64,000 nt of DNA from Syntrophus aciditrophicus SB (GTDB lineage: Bacteria; Desulfobacterota; Syntrophia; Syntrophales; Syntrophaceae). This document shows positions 37,968 through 59,858 of the stretch, one piece after another. The first letter of the stretch is position 1, and the number at the start of each line of letters is the position of its first letter. The position numbers and the translations under genes were made by a program. The stretch spans positions 2,295,001 to 2,359,000 of the forward strand of contig NC_007759.1 of the NCBI RefSeq assembly GCF_000013405.1, given 5' to 3'. The notes under the pieces are model-generated. The model was not told the origin of the DNA. It saw only the letters and a program-made list of their open reading frames with translations, and did not search any database.

Positions 37968-40943
37968 CTAAACGAGCGGCTCAATATCCAGTTTCCGTGG
38001 AAGGCGCGCATTGGCAGCGGACAGGGAATCCTCCGAGGCATAAACGGCAACGCCCTCTTCCTTCTTCATCCTTCCGAAATACTCGATCGCGGCTTCCTGC
38101 AGGCTGCCCGTTGACGCATCCAGAATGGCCTCCCGGAATCTCCGGCGATCGTCGTCGGTTATACCGGCCAGTTCACGCATCATGGCCACCGTTCCCCGAC
38201 TGGACGGATCCAGGGGTCTGTCCAGTCCGCCTATTGTGCCGATAATCGCTTTTTCCATTTCTTCCGGCGCCAGTTTTCTCTCGGTAATGAAGGCCATGGC
38301 CTCCTGATAAATCTCCAGGGTCTCCACGATGCGGGGATCCCGATAAGACAGGAAGGAAAACAGACCGCCTGCGGGATCGAACAGGCACATCCCCCCATAA
38401 GCGCCCCCCTGAACCCGGATGTGCTTGTAAAGATAGCCATTGGACAGGTGACGAGCCAGTACAAGCAGGACTGGTGTAAGGGGATGCTTGAAGTTCGGAG
38501 CAGTCATGACCCGGGCGACGTAAGACACCTGCGCGGGGATCGTGATGCCGGCATAAACCGACTTTTTCCCACGGAGGTTTCCGGGTTGCTCCTTGACGCC
38601 TGTTGTCAGGCGATTGACGAGGGGTTTGATGTGTTCGCTCAGCATAGAAAGCCCTTCCTCATCCCCCGTCAGATTGATCAGCAATCTGTCGCGACAGAAA
38701 ACCAGGGACCGGAGACAGGCCAGCTTTTCCTGGAGTTCCGAGGGCTTCTCGTGAAATTCTTCCGCCATGCGGCTGACAAAACGAAGCTGCGTGCGGCCGT
38801 GCCATTGTTCATCACGCCAGGCTGGCAGGGAAAGGCCCGCTCCCGCCGCCATCCGGGCGAAGGCATGGCCGGATGGCACAACGGCGGCATGGAGGCCATT
38901 CTTCTTCTCCGCAAGCAGATCGCGCATCCGGGTTTCATGACTGAGATCACCATCCGTCAGCAGATCCCTCATTATACCGATCGCGTCCGGTACATTCCGG
39001 TGAAGAGCGCAAACACCGAAAATCATCCGCTGCCAGGAGCCCCGGCCGTCGGCCGTCATCCCGGTGCTCAGGGAACAGCCGACGCCACCGGTCTTCAGCG
39101 TGATCCGCTTGGCCATCTCCTCATAGGAAAAACCAGCCGCCCCCATGTTGTTCGTGATCTTGCCCAGCAGGGGCAGATAAGGCTGAAGCTCCTCGGGGAT
39201 CGCGGAAATGTCGAAGGCCAGTTCTGCATAGGCGATCCCGTTGGTGAAGAGATCGTGAAGCAGGGCGGGGACGCCTTCAAGGGAACTTTTTTCTGTGGGG
39301 ATTGTTTCAATGCCCCGCTCCAGATCGGCCACCTTGAGCTTGGGCAGGGAAGCCGCCGCCTCCGGAGTGTCCGGCTCGCTCTGGAACTCACGGAGACTCC
39401 GCGCGTTGTCCCCAATTTCTTCCAGCTTCCGATCGGACAGGCCGGCTTTCATGACGGCCATTTTTTCCCGGAATTCAGCCTCCTGCTCCTCGGCAACCGT
39501 CCGGCTGGGCTCCAGAACAGCCAGCACGCAGTGAGGATTATCGAGCAGCCAGGTATGCGCCAGGCGTTCAAAGAGATCCGGCTGGGCCGCCCATTTTTTG
39601 CGGATGTTTTCAATAATCCTGGGGAAGTTCAGCCCGGAAAGGGGATCGCCATCATAGAGCCAGGTGTGGTAAGCCCGCCCCATCAGTACGATCCCGTAAG
39701 GATAGGAACTGCGGACGATTTCCTTGCCCTGGAATTCGATCTGATGCAGAACGCCTTCAATCAGTTCCCGATCAAACCCTTCCTTCACCGTTTCCTTCAG
39801 CGTGTTCAGGATGCAGGCTTCAACGGCCTCTGCCTTCACCGGATCGCTTCCCCGCAGGCCCACGGCAAACATCAGCTGTCGCAAATCCCTTTCAATACCC
39901 GTGACGGGAGAAAGATCCTCCCCCAGCCCGGAATCGATGAGCGCCTTGCGCAGCGGCGCGGCCGCGCTGCCGATCAGAATCCCCGACAGGACTTCCAGGA
40001 GGATGGCCGTTTCGTCATCGGTATTTTCCGTCAGCATCCAGGCCATATTGATGGAGGTTTTGCCGGCCAGTGGCTCTTCCCTCCCGATGGGGTAAACTTG
40101 ATGGACGCGCGATGGAGCGGTCCAGCGGGGCTGGCTGCTCACCTCAGAATTCACCGGAGTCCGGTCAAACCCGGCCAGCATCTCTTCCAGGAAGGCAAGA
40201 TGCTCCGCCGTCGGAATATTCCCGTAGAGGAAAAAGCGGGCATTGGACGGCGAATAATAGAGGCGGTGAAAGGCTTTGAACTCTTCGTAGGTCAGGGCTG
40301 GAATATTTTCGGGATTCCCCCCGGAGTCGAAGGCATACGTCGTATCCGGATAGAGGCTTTCCTGGAGCTCTTTGAACATGAGCGTTTCAGGCGAAGAATA
40401 GGCCCCTTTCATTTCGTTGTACACGATGCCGGAGATGGTCAACTCACTGTTGATGTCCTCGGGATCGACAAACTCCAGATGATGGCCTTCCTGATAAAAA
40501 GTCTCCTTCAGCAGGCGGGGATGAAGAACCAGATCGGTGTAAACGCGGGCGAGATTGAAAAAGTCGGCCTTGACCTGGCTGGCCACGGGATAGATGGTCT
40601 TGTCCGGATAGGTGAAGGCATTGATGAAGGTTTGCAGGGTTCCCCGGACCAGTTCGTTGAAGGCATCCTTGAGCGGATACTTTTCCGAACCAGCCAGGAC
40701 GGAATGTTCCAGAATATGAGGCACGCCGGTGGAATTGTTCGGCGGCGTGCGGAAACCGATGGAGAAAAGATTTTCCCTGTCCGTGCTGTGCAGATGGAGC
40801 ACTTTTGCCCCGGTTTTTTCATGCTCGATCTCGTAAGCCGTCACCCGAAGATCGCTGATCTGCTCAACCCTCAGCACTCGAAAACCATGAAGCCTGTCCC
40901 CGGCTTTCAGAGTCGTCTCCGGACATTTTTCTGTCTCATGCAT
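37968..40943 (-). CDS. M16C-family zinc metalloprotease (presequence protease-like)
   Basis: 991 residues. The inverted zinc motif is intact: H76-I-L-E79-H80 in VPHILEHSVLAGSEKYPLK-type context, with the downstream Glu about 75 residues later in the NEMKGAYSSPE region. The M16C family (plant PreP, yeast Cym1, Plasmodium falcilysin) encloses and degrades peptides of up to about 65 residues. Two M16 halves are joined by a helical hinge, and the length fits. No signal peptide, so probably cytoplasmic. I start at ATG 40943 (MHETEKCPETTLKAGDRL); the frame is open upstream to 41054. Confidence 0.9.
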   Translation of the reverse strand: MHETEKCPETTLKAGDRLHGFRVLRVEQISDLRVTAYEIEHEKTGAKVLHLHSTDRENLFSIGFRTPPNNSTGVPHILEHSVLAGSEKYPLKDAFNELVRGTLQTFINAFTYPDKTIYPVASQVKADFFNLARVYTDLVLHPRLLKETFYQEGHHLEFVDPEDINSELTISGIVYNEMKGAYSSPETLMFKELQESLYPDTTYAFDSGGNPENIPALTYEEFKAFHRLYYSPSNARFFLYGNIPTAEHLAFLEEMLAGFDRTPVNSEVSSQPRWTAPSRVHQVYPIGREEPLAGKTSINMAWMLTENTDDETAILLEVLSGILIGSAAAPLRKALIDSGLGEDLSPVTGIERDLRQLMFAVGLRGSDPVKAEAVEACILNTLKETVKEGFDRELIEGVLHQIEFQGKEIVRSSYPYGIVLMGRAYHTWLYDGDPLSGLNFPRIIENIRKKWAAQPDLFERLAHTWLLDNPHCVLAVLEPSRTVAEEQEAEFREKMAVMKAGLSDRKLEEIGDNARSLREFQSEPDTPEAAASLPKLKVADLERGIETIPTEKSSLEGVPALLHDLFTNGIAYAELAFDISAIPEELQPYLPLLGKITNNMGAAGFSYEEMAKRITLKTGGVGCSLSTGMTADGRGSWQRMIFGVCALHRNVPDAIGIMRDLLTDGDLSHETRMRDLLAEKKNGLHAAVVPSGHAFARMAAGAGLSLPAWRDEQWHGRTQLRFVSRMAEEFHEKPSELQEKLACLRSLVFCRDRLLINLTGDEEGLSMLSEHIKPLVNRLTTGVKEQPGNLRGKKSVYAGITIPAQVSYVARVMTAPNFKHPLTPVLLVLARHLSNGYLYKHIRVQGGAYGGMCLFDPAGGLFSFLSYRDPRIVETLEIYQEAMAFITERKLAPEEMEKAIIGTIGGLDRPLDPSSRGTVAMMRELAGITDDDRRRFREAILDASTGSLQEAAIEYFGRMKKEEGVAVYASEDSLSAANARLPRKLDIEPLV

Positions 40944-41122
40944 CGTCGCTGTATCCTCTGTTCTGTATTTTTTCTGAAATTTGCCTTGGTTAAATCTTTT
41001 TGAACCGACCGTCAAGGAAAAACACAGAAGGGAGAATGGCTGGAAAATCGTCAAAAGATTCGGGAAAGCCCGATCGGCGATAAACGTGCCTCCCCGCCTT
41101 TTCTATTCTGCTTCTGACGGAT

Positions 41123-43647: not shown

Positions 43648-43715
43648 CGCTCTGTGGCTCCTTTTTCAGAAGACATGTCTTAAAATGACGGCCGGAATTT
43701 CCGATTCCGGAAACC

Positions 43716-44018
43716 CTACGTCTTGATAGTCGAGACCAGATTCACGAAACGGTCCCATGGTGTGGCGATCCAGGTCTCCGTTGTCGCGTGACCGAATGAG
43801 CGGACGATCAGGGCGACCTTTGTCGCTGAATCCGCATCGGGAGCCTCAAAGAAATCGATGTAGTCGACTCCCCCGAGAACCGCGTAATTGGCAATCCACT
43901 TCACCTCGGGGCACTCTTTTTTAATGCGGCTTTCAACCTGCTCATTGAGTTCGGTCAACGACTGCGGTCTGGCTACGGCCTCAGGCGACAACCTCGTCAA
44001 CATGACATACGTACCCAT
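43716..44018 (-). CDS. GYD domain protein
   Basis: 100 residues of the GYD family (MGTYVMLTRLSPEAVARP start; GYD-type VLGGVDYIDFFEAPD; end TETWIATPWDRFVNLV). The family has a ferredoxin-like alpha/beta fold and no assigned reaction. It follows grdA by 73 bases on the same strand with its own AAGGAGG ribosome site and precedes the terminator, so it is likely the last gene of the reductase operon. Function unknown. Confidence 0.82.
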   Translation of the reverse strand: MGTYVMLTRLSPEAVARPQSLTELNEQVESRIKKECPEVKWIANYAVLGGVDYIDFFEAPDADSATKVALIVRSFGHATTETWIATPWDRFVNLVSTIKT

Positions 44019-44091
44019 GGTTTCCTCCTTTCATTGACTGCGCCATTTTTAAAATCAGACCGGAAATATCTTCAACATAAGGGAGCGCCCA

Positions 44092-44565
44092 TCAGACCAT
44101 TCCGATCTTGCCCCTTATTTCCTTGAATCTTTTACCGATCTCCTCCGTGTCGGCCACCAGTTCCAGAAATCCAGCCTGTTCGTCGTAAATATCATGAGGA
44201 ATGGCCTGCTTCACCTCCGGTTCCAGAATATGATAGACGGGGAGTCTCAACGAGACCCCTGCCAGTGGACCGGCAAAACTCGGATCGCCGAACGTGACCG
44301 TTTCCGCCGTAACCTGAGCCACCTCCGCATCGGCTGCCCCGATGACCACCACCAGATCGCTGGTTCCCAGATCATCCACCAGTTTTTTGATCGTGGCCTG
44401 CATCTCCATGTCCACTGCACCCGCCGAAGTTCAGACGAAACATTCCGTTGCAACCATCACCACTTCTGCTCCGGCTGCCCTCATGCACGCCGCGATGGCG
44501 GGACCGGGAACCCCATCCCTGTCCCCGAAGACGATCACTCTTTTTCCCTTGAACATGATTTTCAT
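44092..44565 (-). CDS. grdA: Glycine/sarcosine/betaine reductase component A, selenoprotein GrdA
   Basis: 157 residues when TGA at 44433-44431 is read as selenocysteine. Component A is the small redox selenoprotein that takes the carboxymethyl group from component B as a selenoether and passes it to component C. The start [18 protein letters not shown], the active site ECFVU (Cys42-x2-Sec45) followed by [11 protein letters not shown], and [17 protein letters not shown] all match GrdA. The ATG at 44565 overlaps the grdC stop (ATGA) and has GGAAGG upstream. A caller that treats TGA as stop sees only residues 49-157. Confidence 0.95.
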
Positions 44566-46034
44566 CCCTTCCTTTCTGAACGTGTCGATTTCTGCTTCCC
44601 GGGATTCTTTTCGATGAAAAAGGACAGGCCGTCCGAAAGCTGGGTCATCCTTCCCAAAAAGAGACTGCCCCGGGCTATAAACATGGCATTGTTCATTTCC
44701 CCCCGCTTGATGGCGTCAACGGCATGCCCCAGGAAAGGGACAGCCGCCGGAATATGCCCCTGAGTAGGGGAAAAACCCGGCATGCCGTGTTTCAGCACAA
44801 ATCGGTCGATATCCCCGCGCTGGATTTCATTCCTCAAGACTGCCAGGGCGCCGATCATCCGGTAGTTGGTCAGGGGCACATTGCCGCTTCCCGCGGAAAC
44901 GGTCACTTCCGGATTCTGCAGTTCAACGGCATACCTGTCCACAGCGGTGATCTTCTTCCCCATCCGGTCGAGCGGCTTCAGAACCAGCGATTCCATGATG
45001 TTCTGCTGAGACGAACCGGAACCGATGTCGTGCTTGCCGATGCCATCCAGACGGACCAGGGGGCTCTCGCCGTCATCACCGGTCACGAGAAAGGCGATTC
45101 CTCCCAGGACATCTTCCAGGATGGGCATGCCTTTGGCGACGTGCCCCTTGAATTTCATCCCCAGCTTGGCCATCGATCCTCCTCCCACCACGGCGACCCG
45201 CTGAAACACACGCGCCTTGACCAGGCTGAACGCGTAAAGAAGGGCATAGAGCGGACCGACACAGAAAGCCTTGATGTCGCAGCCTGTGGCGGAAACGCAT
45301 CCACACAGCTCGCCGATGGCCTTGGCCATGCCGCCTCCGCCTCGGTTATACCGGTCCCCTGCAGCCTCTTCGGAACAGTTGAGCAGAAGTTCGACGTTTT
45401 TCGCCGGAAGATCCGCCTTTTTCAGGAGATGTTTCAACGCCAGAGCCCCTGAAGCCTTGGCCATGAGATTTTCCATCAGGACCTGGGCCTTGAGGGTGTC
45501 GTCCTGATCGTGATGCCTGTGGATGCAGCCGGCAATCCTTCCGCGAAAATAGAGAGGAAGCGAGCCCTTATTTTCAATCCGCTCATGGATGTGTTCCATA
45601 TCAACGCCACCGTCGATTTTTCCCAAATCCGAATCCTTCCAGAATGGGTGAGACTGAAGCGCCCCTCTAAGCAGCGGGGCGGCTTCTCTCTCAAGCCATA
45701 TCAGGTCGAAGTCATCGGCGAGCTTCATCAGGCCGAGAAATTCTTCCTGCGGCATGATCTCGCCATAGACGCCATAGCGGGAGGCGTCGGAAAGAGGATG
45801 GCGGTACCAGGGCTGCTCGATGCCGTTCAGGCTATCGGGGTGGAGATTGCCGATAAAAACCTGATTAGGGGGATAGGCCACCGCGTCTTCATAAATCCGG
45901 AGATGGTTTTCAAGAACGGACAGGGCAGCGCCGGGACTGTCGGCGATTTCCCTGCTGGGTTTCGATCCGTAGCGGACAAAGCCGGGCACATGGACGAGAA
46001 TATAGGAACAGGCCTGAATCACGGGATCGGGCAT
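44562..46034 (-). CDS. grdC: Glycine/sarcosine/betaine reductase component C subunit beta, GrdC
   Basis: 490 residues. GrdC has a thiolase/KAS III-like fold. The first part carries [18 protein letters not shown], the second the nucleophile region [19 protein letters not shown] with the likely acyl-accepting Cys, and [19 protein letters not shown] holds the His. In the known pathway the GrdC/GrdD pair forms an acetyl thioester and releases acetyl phosphate. I start at ATG 46034 behind GAGGAAAG, 11 bases after the grdB stop; the upstream open frame is antisense-like reading of grdB. No grdD is adjacent, which is unusual. Confidence 0.92.
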
Positions 46035-46044
46035 CGCTTTCCTC

Positions 46045-47352
46045 TCAAAAAACCGTCTGCTCTTCGATTTCTGTTTCCAGCGCCCGCAGGGCTTTCTCAA
46101 CCAGAGCCCTCCGCAGGGCCTTTTCTTCTTCCCGGGACCTGGCGGGATCGCCCAGGGGATGGGGAATGGCAACGGCGGGAACGATCCGGTTCGCCCCCAC
46201 CGTCCTGGAAATGGGTACAATCGTGCAGATATGGACGGCGGGGATTCCCGCTCTTTCGATCTCCTTGACCATCGTTGCCCCGCAACGCGTGCACGTCCCT
46301 CAGGTGGATGTAAGAAGAACGGCCCGGACGCCGTCCCGGATAAGGTCTCCAGCGATCTCACGGGCAAACTGCACCGCCCTGGCCACTGATGTGCCGTTTC
46401 CCACCGTCGCGAAATAGTAAGGATAGAGCCTGCCGATTCTCCCTTCCCGTTCGAGGTCTCTCGCCACGTCGAGAGGCAGAACCCGATTCGGGTCCGCGTT
46501 GGCATAGGTGGGATCATACCCCCCGTGGGCGGTTTCATGGGTTTCCGGTGTCAACCGCGATCGCTCACTGATATCGTATTTTCCGTATTTTGTTGCACTG
46601 GAGGATTCCAAGCGGTCCGGATTTCCTTTGGGCACAATCCCGCCGCTGGTCACCAGGGCGAGGACAGCTTCACCTGTCTTTTCCACGGGAGGCGGTGGCC
46701 TGACCCGGTCGAAAACGGGCATGGGATATTCCGTGGAAAAAGACTCCCCCTTCAATTTTTTCAGGAGCATCGACACCGCCCGCACAGCCCCGGTCTCGCC
46801 GGCAAAAAAATTCCGGCGAATCCCCCGGGAGAAATATCCCTCTGCTTCGGGAGAGCCAAGAGGCTCCCGTTTTACCAGTTTCAGGACGAGTCGGCTCATT
46901 TTGAGCGCCGCTTCCCTCATCCCCGCCGTCGTGCCCTTCGTTTCCACGATATAAACGGTTTTCCGATAAGCGTCCACGCCGGGATTTTCGGGATGCATCC
47001 CCGCCACGGCGGGAATGCCCAGCCGATCGACCACGGCCGCGCAGACCGATCCACAGGCAATTCCATATCTCCCCGCATTGAACGCCGGACCCGCAACAAC
47101 GATAGCCGGGTTGAAGCCCTTGATCAGGGAAAGCACTCTCTCCGTGGCTTCATCGATGTGTTCGCCGAAATAATTGTCACCACAGACGACCGTTGCCGCG
47201 ATCTCCACTTCTGCGCCGAGAAGCTCCTGAAAAAGGACGCCTGGGCCCACAGGGCCGCTTTTGACGAGCGGTTCCGTGCCGGCCTTGTCCTCTCCCCCGA
47301 TCTGACCGAAAAACTGATTCAGATAGTGAACCGCTTTCCGTCTCTCCGCCAT
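46045..47352 (-). CDS. grdB: Glycine/sarcosine/betaine reductase component B, selenoprotein GrdB
   Basis: 435 residues when TGA at 46302-46300 is read as selenocysteine (Sec351). Component B activates the substrate amino group. The Sec sits in LLTSTUGTCTRCGATMV (U-x2-C-x2-C), and the following HICTIVPISRTVGANRIVP and AIPHPLGDP match GrdB. N-terminal family motifs HYLNQFFGQIGGEDKAG and PGVLFQELLGAEVEI are present. ATG at 47352 follows AGGAG, 9 bases after grdE. The GrdF/GrdH paralogues serve sarcosine and betaine, so the substrate is not fixed by sequence alone. A 6-bp hairpin beginning 13 bases after the UGA fits a bacterial SECIS. Confidence 0.95.
46273..46287 (-). promoter_or_regulatory. 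Putative SECIS hairpin in grdB
   Basis: On the coding strand CGTTGC, GGG, GCAACG: a perfect 6-bp stem with a small G-rich loop, 12 bases separating it from the selenocysteine UGA. Bacterial SECIS elements lie just downstream of the UGA with G in the apical loop; distance and loop fit. Not tested by folding software. Confidence 0.6.
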
Positions 47353-47361
47353 GACAGTCTC

Positions 47362-48648
47362 CTATTCCCCACGCGCGGACAGCGTCCCGAATCCCAGTTC
47401 GTTCGTGGCGCCGACAATAGCCTGCAGTTCGACCCGGATTCCTTCCCGGGAAAGACTTCCGCTCTTACCCCCTGCCATTTTTTCAATGACCGGAATATCG
47501 CCGATCACCTTATCCATGTTCGGGAGCAAAATCCGCTCATTCGCGTTGCCCACGCTCACCACGGCATCGGCGTGAGGGGTCGCATCGGCCAGCGACTGGG
47601 ACGCGCCGTCAACTCCGGCGAACTCATCGGTGATCATGACGGTCCGTATCCCCTTTTCCTCCAGTCCGGAGCATATCATCATGGCATCGGCATCGGGATT
47701 CCCGAACCCCTCCTTGGAGAGGATCACACCCTCGGCGCCAAGCAATTCAACAAGTTTGACGGCATAGTCCGCGGAGCGCGTCTTGTCCCGGAGCGTGACG
47801 TTGCTGTTGCTGACGACGACTCCCAGAAAACGGAAATCGATGCCGTCCCGACGAAGAAGCTCGGAAATGATGGGATTGTTCTGATGATGATATGTTGTGT
47901 TCTTGTCACAGGCGGAAACGCAGTTTCCACTGACGACAGCCCCGTCCATGACTTCCGTGGGCTGAATAAGAGTGGGCAGGAGGGTTTTCACGTCGCGCCC
48001 GTAGAGGTAGGTATCATGGAGCAGGCCCTGACTCAACAGCATATAGAGATAAACCACGCCTGGCAGATCGGAGGCGCAGCCCGGCCGTTGAAACAGCCGG
48101 CGCGGTTCAAACCGGTCTATACGGTCCGGGCGGATACCGCGACCCGCCTCTCCCAGATAGACGGCGGCGCGCAAACCGGCCAGACGCAGGGCTTCCTCGT
48201 GCTGATGCGGTGAGATCCCGGCGATGACGTCGATGGACAGAACGACATTGAGAAATCGGGAAAAGGAAGAATATCGGGCTCCCGGACCGCTCATGTCGAT
48301 CAGCCCCTCCTGAAAGCCCACGATCTGCCCAGCCGTGACCACGGAGCACCCCCGGAGCGCATGGGTCCGCCCGGTTCCCACGGTCTCGACACCGGAAATC
48401 AAGCCGGGGAACTCTCCTCCCTTCCCCTCGACCTTGACCCGGGGTTCAACGACATCCTTGACGGGAATGATACGCACACTCTCGTCGGGCCGGGCCAGAT
48501 CCGCCCTGACGGAGGCGATGCGGTAATCGTCCCCTTTTGTTTCTTCGATAAGCTCTTCCCTTGAAATTTGAAGGACTTTGCCTTCAATGAGGGTCTTGCG
48601 CCCCCAGGCAATTTCTTCGATGGGTATGTGGCCCAGTTCGAGAAACAC
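47362..48648 (-). CDS. grdE: Glycine/sarcosine/betaine reductase component B precursor GrdE
   Basis: 428 residues. GrdE-type proproteins cleave themselves at an internal Cys to give two subunits, the downstream one starting with a pyruvoyl group that binds the substrate amine. The cleavage-site sequence VVSGNCVSACDKNTTYHH is present (Cys243). MFLELGHIPIEEIAWG at the start and EGFGNPDADAMMICSGLEEK later also match. Start is GTG at 48648, placed after GGGAGA. It is the first gene of the operon. Relatives GrdG and GrdI take sarcosine and betaine, so substrate is open. Confidence 0.93.
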   Translation of the reverse strand: MFLELGHIPIEEIAWGRKTLIEGKVLQISREELIEETKGDDYRIASVRADLARPDESVRIIPVKDVVEPRVKVEGKGGEFPGLISGVETVGTGRTHALRGCSVVTAGQIVGFQEGLIDMSGPGARYSSFSRFLNVVLSIDVIAGISPHQHEEALRLAGLRAAVYLGEAGRGIRPDRIDRFEPRRLFQRPGCASDLPGVVYLYMLLSQGLLHDTYLYGRDVKTLLPTLIQPTEVMDGAVVSGNCVSACDKNTTYHHQNNPIISELLRRDGIDFRFLGVVVSNSNVTLRDKTRSADYAVKLVELLGAEGVILSKEGFGNPDADAMMICSGLEEKGIRTVMITDEFAGVDGASQSLADATPHADAVVSVGNANERILLPNMDKVIGDIPVIEKMAGGKSGSLSREGIRVELQAIVGATNELGFGTLSARGE

Positions 48649-49072
48649 GATGAAATCTCCCTTTTTTCAAAAAAACGGGAAGCTTCGGAACGTCCCTCAA
48701 TTCCGTGAACATCAGGTTACCCTTTCCCTCGGGTACGGCGGTAAGGAAATCGCCTCCCTGCCTTTGCTGGCGCGAGCCTTTTTCCTGTCCCCTGATTTCA
48801 CGATACGGCCGGTAAGATTTAAAACCAGAATAAGGTACGGCGGCAGATGTGTCAAGATGTAAAGAATTACGAAATACAGATACATAAAAGATCTCCACCG
48901 GGAAAGGAAGGATGGTGAATGAGGTGGAAAAAAACGGGACTTTTCCCTGGCGAGGCTCCAGATATTGGCGAAAAAGAGATGTATGTGCTAAGAGGGGGCG
49001 GATAAGAGTTCGTTGGGCAATAAGCCTAAAAATTTTTTGTTCGAAACAGAAAGAAAGGATGATACGGCAGCC
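48649..49072. other. Divergent intergenic region upstream of the reductase operon
   Basis: 424 bases between grdE (minus) and the small hydrolase (plus). It must hold the operon promoter, but I found no convincing boxes and no glycine-riboswitch core sequence. A ten-base direct repeat GGTACGGCGG occurs near 48732 and 48835. Confidence 0.5.
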
Positions 49073-58263: not shown

Positions 58264-59858
58264 GTCCGTCCTGAAAAATAGGATGTGAAAAATTTTTTGG
58301 TTGATCGATTCTTTGAAAACTGAAGATGATTGCGGCTAAAGAAGAGATTTTCTGAATGATTTTCTCTACACTGTCTGTCGATTCCCTCTAAGGCTTGCTT
58401 TTATCCCATTTGCCCATGCAGTTGGACAATCTTTTTCATGTTCCAGGCGAGGGTGGCCCATACAACATTGACGGTATCTCCTGCCGCTCCCTTGTACCGA
58501 CAGCGATTCATGCGATGATCGCTTTTGAGATGACCGATAACGGGTTCAATCTTGACTCTTTGCTTCAAGGCTTTTCTGAACCAGGATTCTTTGCTGTCCG
58601 GATGAGGCGTCTTTCCCTTCTTTGGAATGGCGATTCTTTTGATGCCCCACCGTCTGCGGCAGTTTTCCTGTTTTTTGAGGGATTGATCGAATCCCCGATC
58701 CGCCGCAACTTCTCGTGGTCGTTGTCCCACATTGGTCTTGATTCCGGTGATCACCCGTCCCAAGGTCTTCACATCGGCGACGTTATGCTGATATTCCACA
58801 TGGGACAGGATCAAACCGTCATCGTTTTTTGCAAGAGCAATAAGTGCTCCAAACTCAGTGTCGGGGTGGCTCTTTCCTTTCCTGATCACGGCCACATTCG
58901 GCTCATGAAGGGAGTAAATCCGCTTTCGAGGAAGGTGGCCGGAGAGAACCTCCTCCGTTTGATTGACGATTTTCTTCCCGAGAGAAACCAGACGATTGAG
59001 TTTCCGTCCCGATTCCTTGAGCCCTCGACGGTAAAGACTGCTTACCACCCTTCCGGTCTTTTCGACCACATGACGGGTCATCTCTTTGAGTTTTTTGATC
59101 TCCTCTTTCCTGCCTTCCGGATTTTTTCGGTGGAACTTCTTGATTCCGAGGAGGAGTTTTTTACCAGATCGATTGAAGGTGCGAAAGGGCTTCCGAAGGG
59201 TTACCTCCTCACGAACCCTTTGGACTTGCTTGACGATCTTCTCTCTAATCCGGTAAAGGAGATCGGCGTCCGTCGGATAGGCGATGTTCTTGGGTTGAGC
59301 AGTGGTATCGACCGCCACCCGTCTGGCTTTTACCAAGCCCATCTCGGACCAGGTCTTGAGCAACGCCGCCTCTATCTCTTTCATCCCTTCCGTGCCGATT
59401 CGATTCCGAAACTTCACCAGGGATGTGGCTTCCATAATCTGTCCACGCTGAAAGCTGTTGAATCCGCAAAAGCACTGCCAGTAGGCGTTTTCATGCAGCA
59501 TTTCAACCGCTCGTTCGTCGGAACAGTTATAGCGATGTTTCAAAATGTGTATGCCGACCATCAGTCGAATGGATTTCCCCTGGCGACCCCGGAGGCTATA
59601 GTAAGCAGACAGTGTATCATGGATGTTGTCCCAATCGATCAAGCGTGCGGCACGAAGTAACTCATGCTCCGGGTTGAGGACATCCGAAAACTGCGTCTCG
59701 AACATAAGAAGTTGCCTTTCTGGAATATGTACTTTCATATCAGCCACTTATAGTACATTTTCAGAGTAGAAACAACTGCAAATCCACAATTTTCTTCAGT
59801 TTTCAAAGAACAGTTTCATTATTTATGCGGGTTGCAGCCCGTATTTTTCAGGACGGAC
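58264..59858 (-). mobile_element. Complete insertion sequence (IS4/IS5-like, 1595 bp)
   Basis: The ends are perfect 17-bp inverted repeats: GTCCGTCCTGAAAAATA at 58264-58280 and its complement at 59842-59858. It is flanked by 6-bp direct repeats TAAGTA. A second 17-bp inverted pair lies inside, TTCTTTGAAAACTGAAG (58309-58325) and its complement (59794-59810), 45 and 48 bases from the tips. One full-length transposase gene fills the rest. Intact ends and gene suggest recent, possibly still active, insertion between der and livJ. Confidence 0.92.
58401..59738 (-). CDS. IS transposase (DDE type, IS4/IS5-like)
   Basis: 445 residues. The N-terminal DUF772-type domain (about 15-110) has LMVGIHILKHRYNCSDERAV. 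The DDE catalytic core follows with VAVDTTAQPKNIAYPTDADLL carrying the first Asp; the two halves are VAVDTTAQPKNIAYP and TDADLL. EVAADRGFD holds the second Asp and RVKIEPVIGHLKSDHRMNR the Glu. ATG 59738 is my choice; a GTG three codons upstream is equally possible. No frameshift or stop seen. Confidence 0.92.
   Translation of the reverse strand: MKVHIPERQLLMFETQFSDVLNPEHELLRAARLIDWDNIHDTLSAYYSLRGRQGKSIRLMVGIHILKHRYNCSDERAVEMLHENAYWQCFCGFNSFQRGQIMEATSLVKFRNRIGTEGMKEIEAALLKTWSEMGLVKARRVAVDTTAQPKNIAYPTDADLLYRIREKIVKQVQRVREEVTLRKPFRTFNRSGKKLLLGIKKFHRKNPEGRKEEIKKLKEMTRHVVEKTGRVVSSLYRRGLKESGRKLNRLVSLGKKIVNQTEEVLSGHLPRKRIYSLHEPNVAVIRKGKSHPDTEFGALIALAKNDDGLILSHVEYQHNVADVKTLGRVITGIKTNVGQRPREVAADRGFDQSLKKQENCRRRWGIKRIAIPKKGKTPHPDSKESWFRKALKQRVKIEPVIGHLKSDHRMNRCRYKGAAGDTVNVVWATLAWNMKKIVQLHGQMG

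Follow-up and report, generated by a model that had tools for sequence, protein, structure and literature searches.

The glycine reductase of Peptoclostridium acidaminophilum and Clostridium sticklandii (GrdABCDE, TrxAB) works in an established order in which component B passes its product to component A, and component A to component C. Clostridial component C pairs GrdC (the beta subunit) with GrdD (the alpha subunit), and Kohlstock et al. in 2001 reportedly assigned acetyl phosphate formation to a thiol of GrdD, Cys359. The clostridia conserve energy by this route, GrdD yielding acetyl phosphate for acetate kinase (Ack). Here we analyzed a related operon of Syntrophus aciditrophicus SB within a 64,000-nucleotide stretch of its genome (hereafter the window; contig NC_007759.1, positions 2,295,001 to 2,359,000 of the forward strand), in which grdE, grdB, grdC, and grdA lie on the minus strand in the interval 43716-48648.

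GrdE, GrdB, GrdC, and GrdA are common to S. aciditrophicus and the clostridia, as are the selenocysteine (Sec) residues of GrdB (UxxC) and GrdA (CxxU) and the pyruvoyl motif of GrdE. Unlike its clostridial counterpart, the S. aciditrophicus system has no GrdD, follows the order E-B-C-A, contains no trxAB in the operon, and belongs to a genome without an acetate kinase over the profile cut-off. The glycine reductase of Desulfovibrio desulfuricans, a member of the same enzyme family from a related bacterial group, is accompanied by both component C subunits, thioredoxin and its reductase, Ack/Pta, and the glycine cleavage system (PMC7547702). In the S. aciditrophicus genome, by contrast, our searches detected neither GrdD nor Ack nor the P-protein. 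The absence of GrdD had been missed in an earlier note on this DNA, and the placement of the operon in a GrdD-less branch of the family is the new part of this work. We read the locus as encoding a working Sec-dependent amino-acid reductase (for glycine, possibly sarcosine) of a GrdD-less lineage, whose GrdC passes the acetyl group most likely to coenzyme A (CoA); we give this combined reading an even chance of being right.

A lineage of Grd operons without GrdD

Our profile searches, run family by family, covered a closed genome consisting of a single contig of 3,179,300 bp. As the earlier note proposed, the four grd genes form one minus-strand run, and their family matches are far beyond chance. 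The run comprises grdE, encoding the proprotein of component B (47362..48648; PF09338, E=1.5e-187), grdB, encoding selenoprotein B with Sec351 (46045..47352; TIGR01918, 3.7e-197), grdC, encoding the component C beta subunit (44562..46034; NF040746, 1.8e-196, 653 bits against a cut-off of 450), and grdA, encoding selenoprotein A with Sec45 (coding part 44095..44565, followed by the stop codon; NF040748, 4.4e-61, 205 bits against a cut-off of 130). The genes are tightly spaced, with gaps of about 10 bases from grdE to grdB and from grdB to grdC, and an overlap of 4 bases between grdC and grdA.

A search of the closed genome with the GrdD model NF040747 gave no match at E<=0.001. Among controls, this model exceeded its cut-off in 13/13 genomes chosen as GrdD-bearing and in 0/19 chosen as GrdD-less. 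Among 395 genomes drawn evenly from Desulfobacterota, 20 carried GrdC over cut-off; five of these had GrdD and 15, including S. aciditrophicus, had none. GrdC was absent from every other sampled genome of its order (0/15), so the operon is patchily distributed and may have spread horizontally. The accessible text of a 2026 Desulfobacterota study of the five glycine reductase subunits describes an origin of the complex in the common ancestor as unsupported and does not mention a GrdD-less type (PMC12827605). The accessible portions of the literature on grdD and glycine reductase, or on Syntrophus and glycine reductase, likewise point to no GrdD-less system, and the novelty of this branch is provisional.

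In a maximum-likelihood tree built from 79 GrdC sequences, 29 GrdD-less sequences form one clade (support 100/99). This clade spans three phyla and contains Desulfobacterota, eight Actinomycetota, and Brevibacillus massiliensis. The GrdD-bearing sequences outside it come from Bacillota, a Synergistaceae, a Cloacimonadota, and five Desulfobacterota. One Synergistales locus (L059), which has a long branch and no GrdB or GrdE, was set aside and not counted as a GrdD-less system. A quicker tree of GrdA likewise clustered the GrdD-less and GrdD-bearing labels. The nearest named relatives include Syntrophus sp. PtaB.Bin001.

Gene order in the GrdD-less loci is mostly E-B-(TrxA)-C-A in Desulfobacterota and E-B-C-(TrxA)-A in Actinomycetota, and no gene that could replace GrdD recurs in the neighborhoods examined, except for a thioredoxin-like gene. 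In GrdD-bearing loci, GrdC adjoins GrdD or is even fused to it; single open frames of about 860-900 amino acids joining the two occur at L015:9998-12568 and in genomes G027 and G031 (those of loci L026 and L064). Component B is not tied to the clade: the Brevibacillus GrdB scores best with the betaine model (740.6 bits, cut-off 775), and that of S. aciditrophicus matches the glycine model. The GrdD-less trait therefore concerns the acetyl-releasing end of the enzyme and not its substrate end. The B. massiliensis locus (L009, 5828-11758) is a GrdD-less operon with a betaine-type GrdB and trxAB, in a genome without an acetate kinase over cut-off. GrdD-less operons with Sec sites in both GrdA and GrdB were also seen in metagenome-assembled genomes of Acidimicrobiia-type Actinomycetota (L040, L051-L057, L063).

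Fate of the acetyl group

An AlphaFold model of GrdC, built from an alignment of 45 of its own and related sequences, reached a mean predicted local distance difference test score (pLDDT) of 91.8. The model matched PqsBC, OleA, KAS III, HMG-CoA synthase, PhlABC, and thiolases with Z of about 22, at sequence identities of only 10-17%. At the sequence level the match to KAS III was marginal, and Cys258 of GrdC aligned with the KAS III nucleophile region. GrdC is thus, by its predicted structure, a protein of the thiolase/KAS III fold. It differs from the other enzymes of this fold in that its C-terminal part carries the DUF5940 family and no condensing activity is known for it. The best of the structure matches (PqsBC, OleA, KAS III, thiolases) carry their acyl group on a cysteine and mostly use CoA. 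Cys220, Cys258, and His427 are invariant in GrdC from GrdD-less and GrdD-bearing loci alike (Cys258 in 29/29 and 47/47 sequences, respectively). Clade-specific substitutions, written from GrdD-bearing to GrdD-less, are N229Y, R255K, N294K, D297G, and G454A. A Cys-His-His triad special to GrdD-less GrdC was considered and dropped, since His437, present in 29/29 GrdD-less sequences, also occurs in 14/47 GrdD-bearing ones.

We propose that GrdE and GrdB would bind the amine substrate through the pyruvoyl group, that the carboxymethyl group would move from them to the selenol of GrdA, and that GrdA (CxxU) together with thiols would reduce it. GrdC would then bind the resulting acetyl (ketene-level) group in thioester linkage to the conserved Cys258. 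Because there is no GrdD to phosphorolyse this thioester, GrdC itself, with its predicted thiolase/KAS III fold, would most likely hand the acetyl group on to CoA. The resulting acetyl-CoA would join the acetyl-CoA pool of the cell, including the AMP-forming Acs1 route to ATP. The gene set, the two Sec codons with their machinery, the lack of grdD, the clade, and the predicted fold come from our data; the substrate, the role of Cys258, and most of all CoA as the acceptor are inferred. Extended to the whole clade, the scheme would define a second kind of glycine/sarcosine/betaine reductase, in which GrdC transfers directly to CoA and yields acetyl-CoA independently of GrdD and acetate kinase; this generalization is tentative, and we hold it at somewhat short of an even chance.

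The metabolism of the organism is compatible with such a product. S. aciditrophicus has been reported to lack Ack/Pta homologues and to use the AMP-forming Acs1 on acetyl-CoA (PMC4992975), and our search of its closed genome detected no acetate kinase over the TIGR00016 cut-off. An acetyl-phosphate-making glycine reductase would be poorly placed there, and an acetyl-CoA-making one would fit. Across the genomes compared, which are not phylogenetically independent and some of which are incomplete, acetate kinase (TIGR00016) was present in 18/18 GrdD-bearing and 8/30 GrdD-less genomes; within the phylum the counts were 5/5 and 4/15, on a background of 130/395. In these data GrdD was present only alongside Ack. 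GrdD-less genomes carry acetate kinase at the background rate (4/15 vs. 121/375, p=0.78), so we do not conclude that GrdD-less systems avoid Ack, which they do not appear to do, and we dropped the idea that loss of GrdD follows loss of the kinase.

That background rate is one of several points that weigh against transfer to CoA. Another is that Cys258 and His427 are equally conserved in GrdD-bearing GrdC, so that a gain of CoA use cannot be read from the sequence. No thioredoxin pair lies beside the S. aciditrophicus grd copy, and we found neither biochemical nor expression evidence on the operon. Furthermore, the two butyrate kinase/phosphate acyltransferase clusters of S. aciditrophicus (PMC4992975) could in principle handle acetyl phosphate.

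The clusters are central to the alternative that survives best, namely that acetyl phosphate is still made, with GrdC alone or together with a phosphate acetyl/butyryltransferase phosphorolysing the thioester and butyrate kinase making ATP. The organism is reported to have two butyrate kinase and four phosphate acetyl-/butyryltransferase genes, whose proteins, however, were very low in abundance (PMC4992975). Two sub-cut-off acetate-kinase-family matches in our search fit the butyrate kinases. Against this alternative, the GrdD-less trait is a property of a GrdC clade spanning many genomes and not a local replacement, and the known acetyl-phosphate-forming thiol reportedly sits in GrdD itself. 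We consider it unlikely.

In a second alternative, the acetyl-enzyme is simply hydrolysed to acetate, making the system an electron sink that deaminates glycine and conserves no energy. This would agree with the lack of any linked gene for a dedicated acyl acceptor in the GrdD-less loci examined and with the background frequency of acetate kinase in their genomes. Yet an organism that lives close to thermodynamic equilibrium would pay a high price for discarding a thioester, and GrdC retains an acyl-transfer fold and a conserved cysteine, which makes hydrolysis distinctly unlikely.

The earlier note viewed the operon as an accessory way to conserve energy or dispose of electrons, which implies the clostridial scheme with acetyl phosphate and acetate kinase as the energy source. 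The gene families and Sec sites do match their clostridial counterparts, but that route needs both GrdD and acetate kinase and the closed genome has neither over cut-off, so energy conservation in the clostridial sense is unsupported and, barring a non-homologous substitute, very improbable. What stands of the proposal is that the system could possibly serve as an electron sink or feed acetyl-CoA into the AMP-forming Acs route. We give hardly any credence to CO2 fixation via the reductive glycine pathway, in which D. desulfuricans uses its glycine reductase (PMC7547702): the glycine decarboxylase P-protein (PF02347) had no match in the S. aciditrophicus genome, compared with matches in 10/14 control genomes, and the GrdD-bearing systems of the phylum also have Ack and fall outside the GrdD-less clade. 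Because the P-protein is absent, glycine reduction is plausible as a disposal route for glycine.

Selenocysteine codons and substrate

Both grdB and grdA contain an in-frame TGA codon. Translation places these at codon 351 of grdB (46300..46302, in STUGTCTRC) and codon 45 of grdA (44431..44433, in ECFVUTS), the known Sec positions of the two families to which the earlier note had assigned them, and in related loci the family sequence continues in frame past both stops. Every site-spanning match among the related loci inspected from Desulfobacterota, Bacillota, and Actinomycetota has an in-frame stop at the corresponding Sec site, and the codon is TGA in the close relatives for which it was read out. 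When the genes were compared with those of Syntrophus sp. and Desulforhabdus, the synonymous bias of codon changes was as strong after the TGAs as before them. For grdB against locus L004, synonymous/non-synonymous changes numbered 33/12 after the TGA and 126/88 before it, a bias at least equal to that of the first part of the gene. Purifying selection therefore acts on the frames beyond the TGAs.

A match to the Rfam selenocysteine insertion sequence (SECIS) model SECIS_4 (RF01990; 46262..46299, minus strand; 44.3 bits, gathering 38) begins right behind the grdB TGA. No Rfam SECIS model matched behind the grdA TGA, which is weak evidence in either direction because bacterial SECIS elements are diverse. 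Minimum-free-energy folding of the two post-TGA stretches was not better than that of shuffles and therefore lends no support to a SECIS after the grdA TGA. The machinery on which the earlier note made its reading depend is all encoded in the genome: selA (615 bits, cut-off 268), selB (374 bits, cut-off 242), tRNA-Sec (77 bits, gathering 47), and selD (genome coordinates 1086624-1087553, locus L116). The last has one in-frame TGA, and the selenophosphate synthetase (SelD) of S. aciditrophicus is probably itself a selenoprotein. This fits the selenoproteome of S. aciditrophicus published in 2006, in which SelD, GrdA, and GrdB are among 19 selenoproteins (PMC1794560). The selenoprotein finding is thus already known, and the earlier note's description of the operon as hidden is not right for this organism. 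We consider the Sec reading of both genes safe on comparative grounds; that the TGAs are sequencing errors or that the grd genes are decaying has next to no probability in view of the same-site stops in relatives, the synonymous-biased change past the TGAs, and the SECIS match, and was rejected.

A GrdA-like frame with a Cys-rich QCSLCC in place of ECFVU was seen at L105:12399-12842 (minus strand), on a contig that also carries a Sec-containing GrdA. In the 2006 survey, GrdA had no known Cys homologues (PMC1794560).

Gene families and Sec sites bear out the assignment to a glycine reductase type in the sense of the glycine/sarcosine/betaine reductases. The sarcosine (GrdFG) and betaine (GrdHI) reductases belong to the same B-component superfamily and share components A and C. 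An SGNC pyruvoyl motif is what one would expect where the substrate carries a primary or secondary amine. GrdE of S. aciditrophicus contains the pyruvoyl-precursor motif SGNC-VSACDKN (SGNCVSACDKNTTY), with Cys243, which is common to glycine/sarcosine-type GrdE, whereas betaine-type and Actinomycetota loci have no SGNC. Because of this motif, the locus points to glycine or sarcosine as substrate, two choices that the profile models do not part cleanly. GrdB exceeds the cut-off of the glycine reductase selenoprotein B model (TIGR01917, 648 bits, cut-off 602.2), and it scores 647.6 bits with the sarcosine model GrdF, under the cut-off of 800; all scores with the NCBIfam models GrdF, GrdG, and GrdH are below cut-off. 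By sequence, GrdB matched no solved structure. Betaine reductase is unlikely given the pyruvoyl motif and a GrdH score well under cut-off. The fluoroacetate reductase FarEB is likewise a GrdE/GrdB-like pair feeding a Grd system, but FarE reportedly has no processing cysteines (PMC10838667), which the S. aciditrophicus GrdE does have; since GrdE scores 177 bits, far short of the FarE cut-off of 675, this candidate was rejected. In the Actinomycetota genomes, GrdE has no pyruvoyl motif where it was read, and for that reason the substrate of their GrdD-less operons is probably not glycine.

Neighboring genes and implications

The interval 43716-48648 also contains a gene for a GYD-domain protein (43716..44018, minus strand; PF08734, 3.4e-24), on which the earlier note was silent. 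A sigma-70-like promoter site (TTGACA-17-TATTCT; 48827..48855, minus strand; 10/12 matches in a consensus scan) is predicted some 180 bases ahead of grdE, and the GYD gene is followed by a terminator-like hairpin (43692..43710, minus strand), identified by consensus match only. Because of these two predicted sites the GYD gene may be co-transcribed with the grd genes; no GYD gene was found beside the related grd operons examined, and its membership in the operon is uncertain. The neighbors outside the grd run (universal stress protein, alpha/beta hydrolase, NIL-ferredoxin, and peptidase genes) show no functional link to it. Elsewhere in the window, a 448-amino-acid open frame at 58401-59747 looks like an insertion-sequence transposase, and an 860-amino-acid frame at 38421-41003, antisense to a peptidase-family gene, is probably a chance product of base composition.

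In accounts of Stickland fermentation and of the reductive glycine pathway alike, glycine reductase is taken to include the making of acetyl phosphate by component C. The existence of a coherent GrdD-less lineage would make it unsafe to conclude from GrdA, GrdB, and GrdC alone that glycine reductase means acetyl phosphate and ATP via acetate kinase. It would also allow the chemistry of GrdC to be tested where GrdD is naturally absent, and S. aciditrophicus is a cultivated organism.

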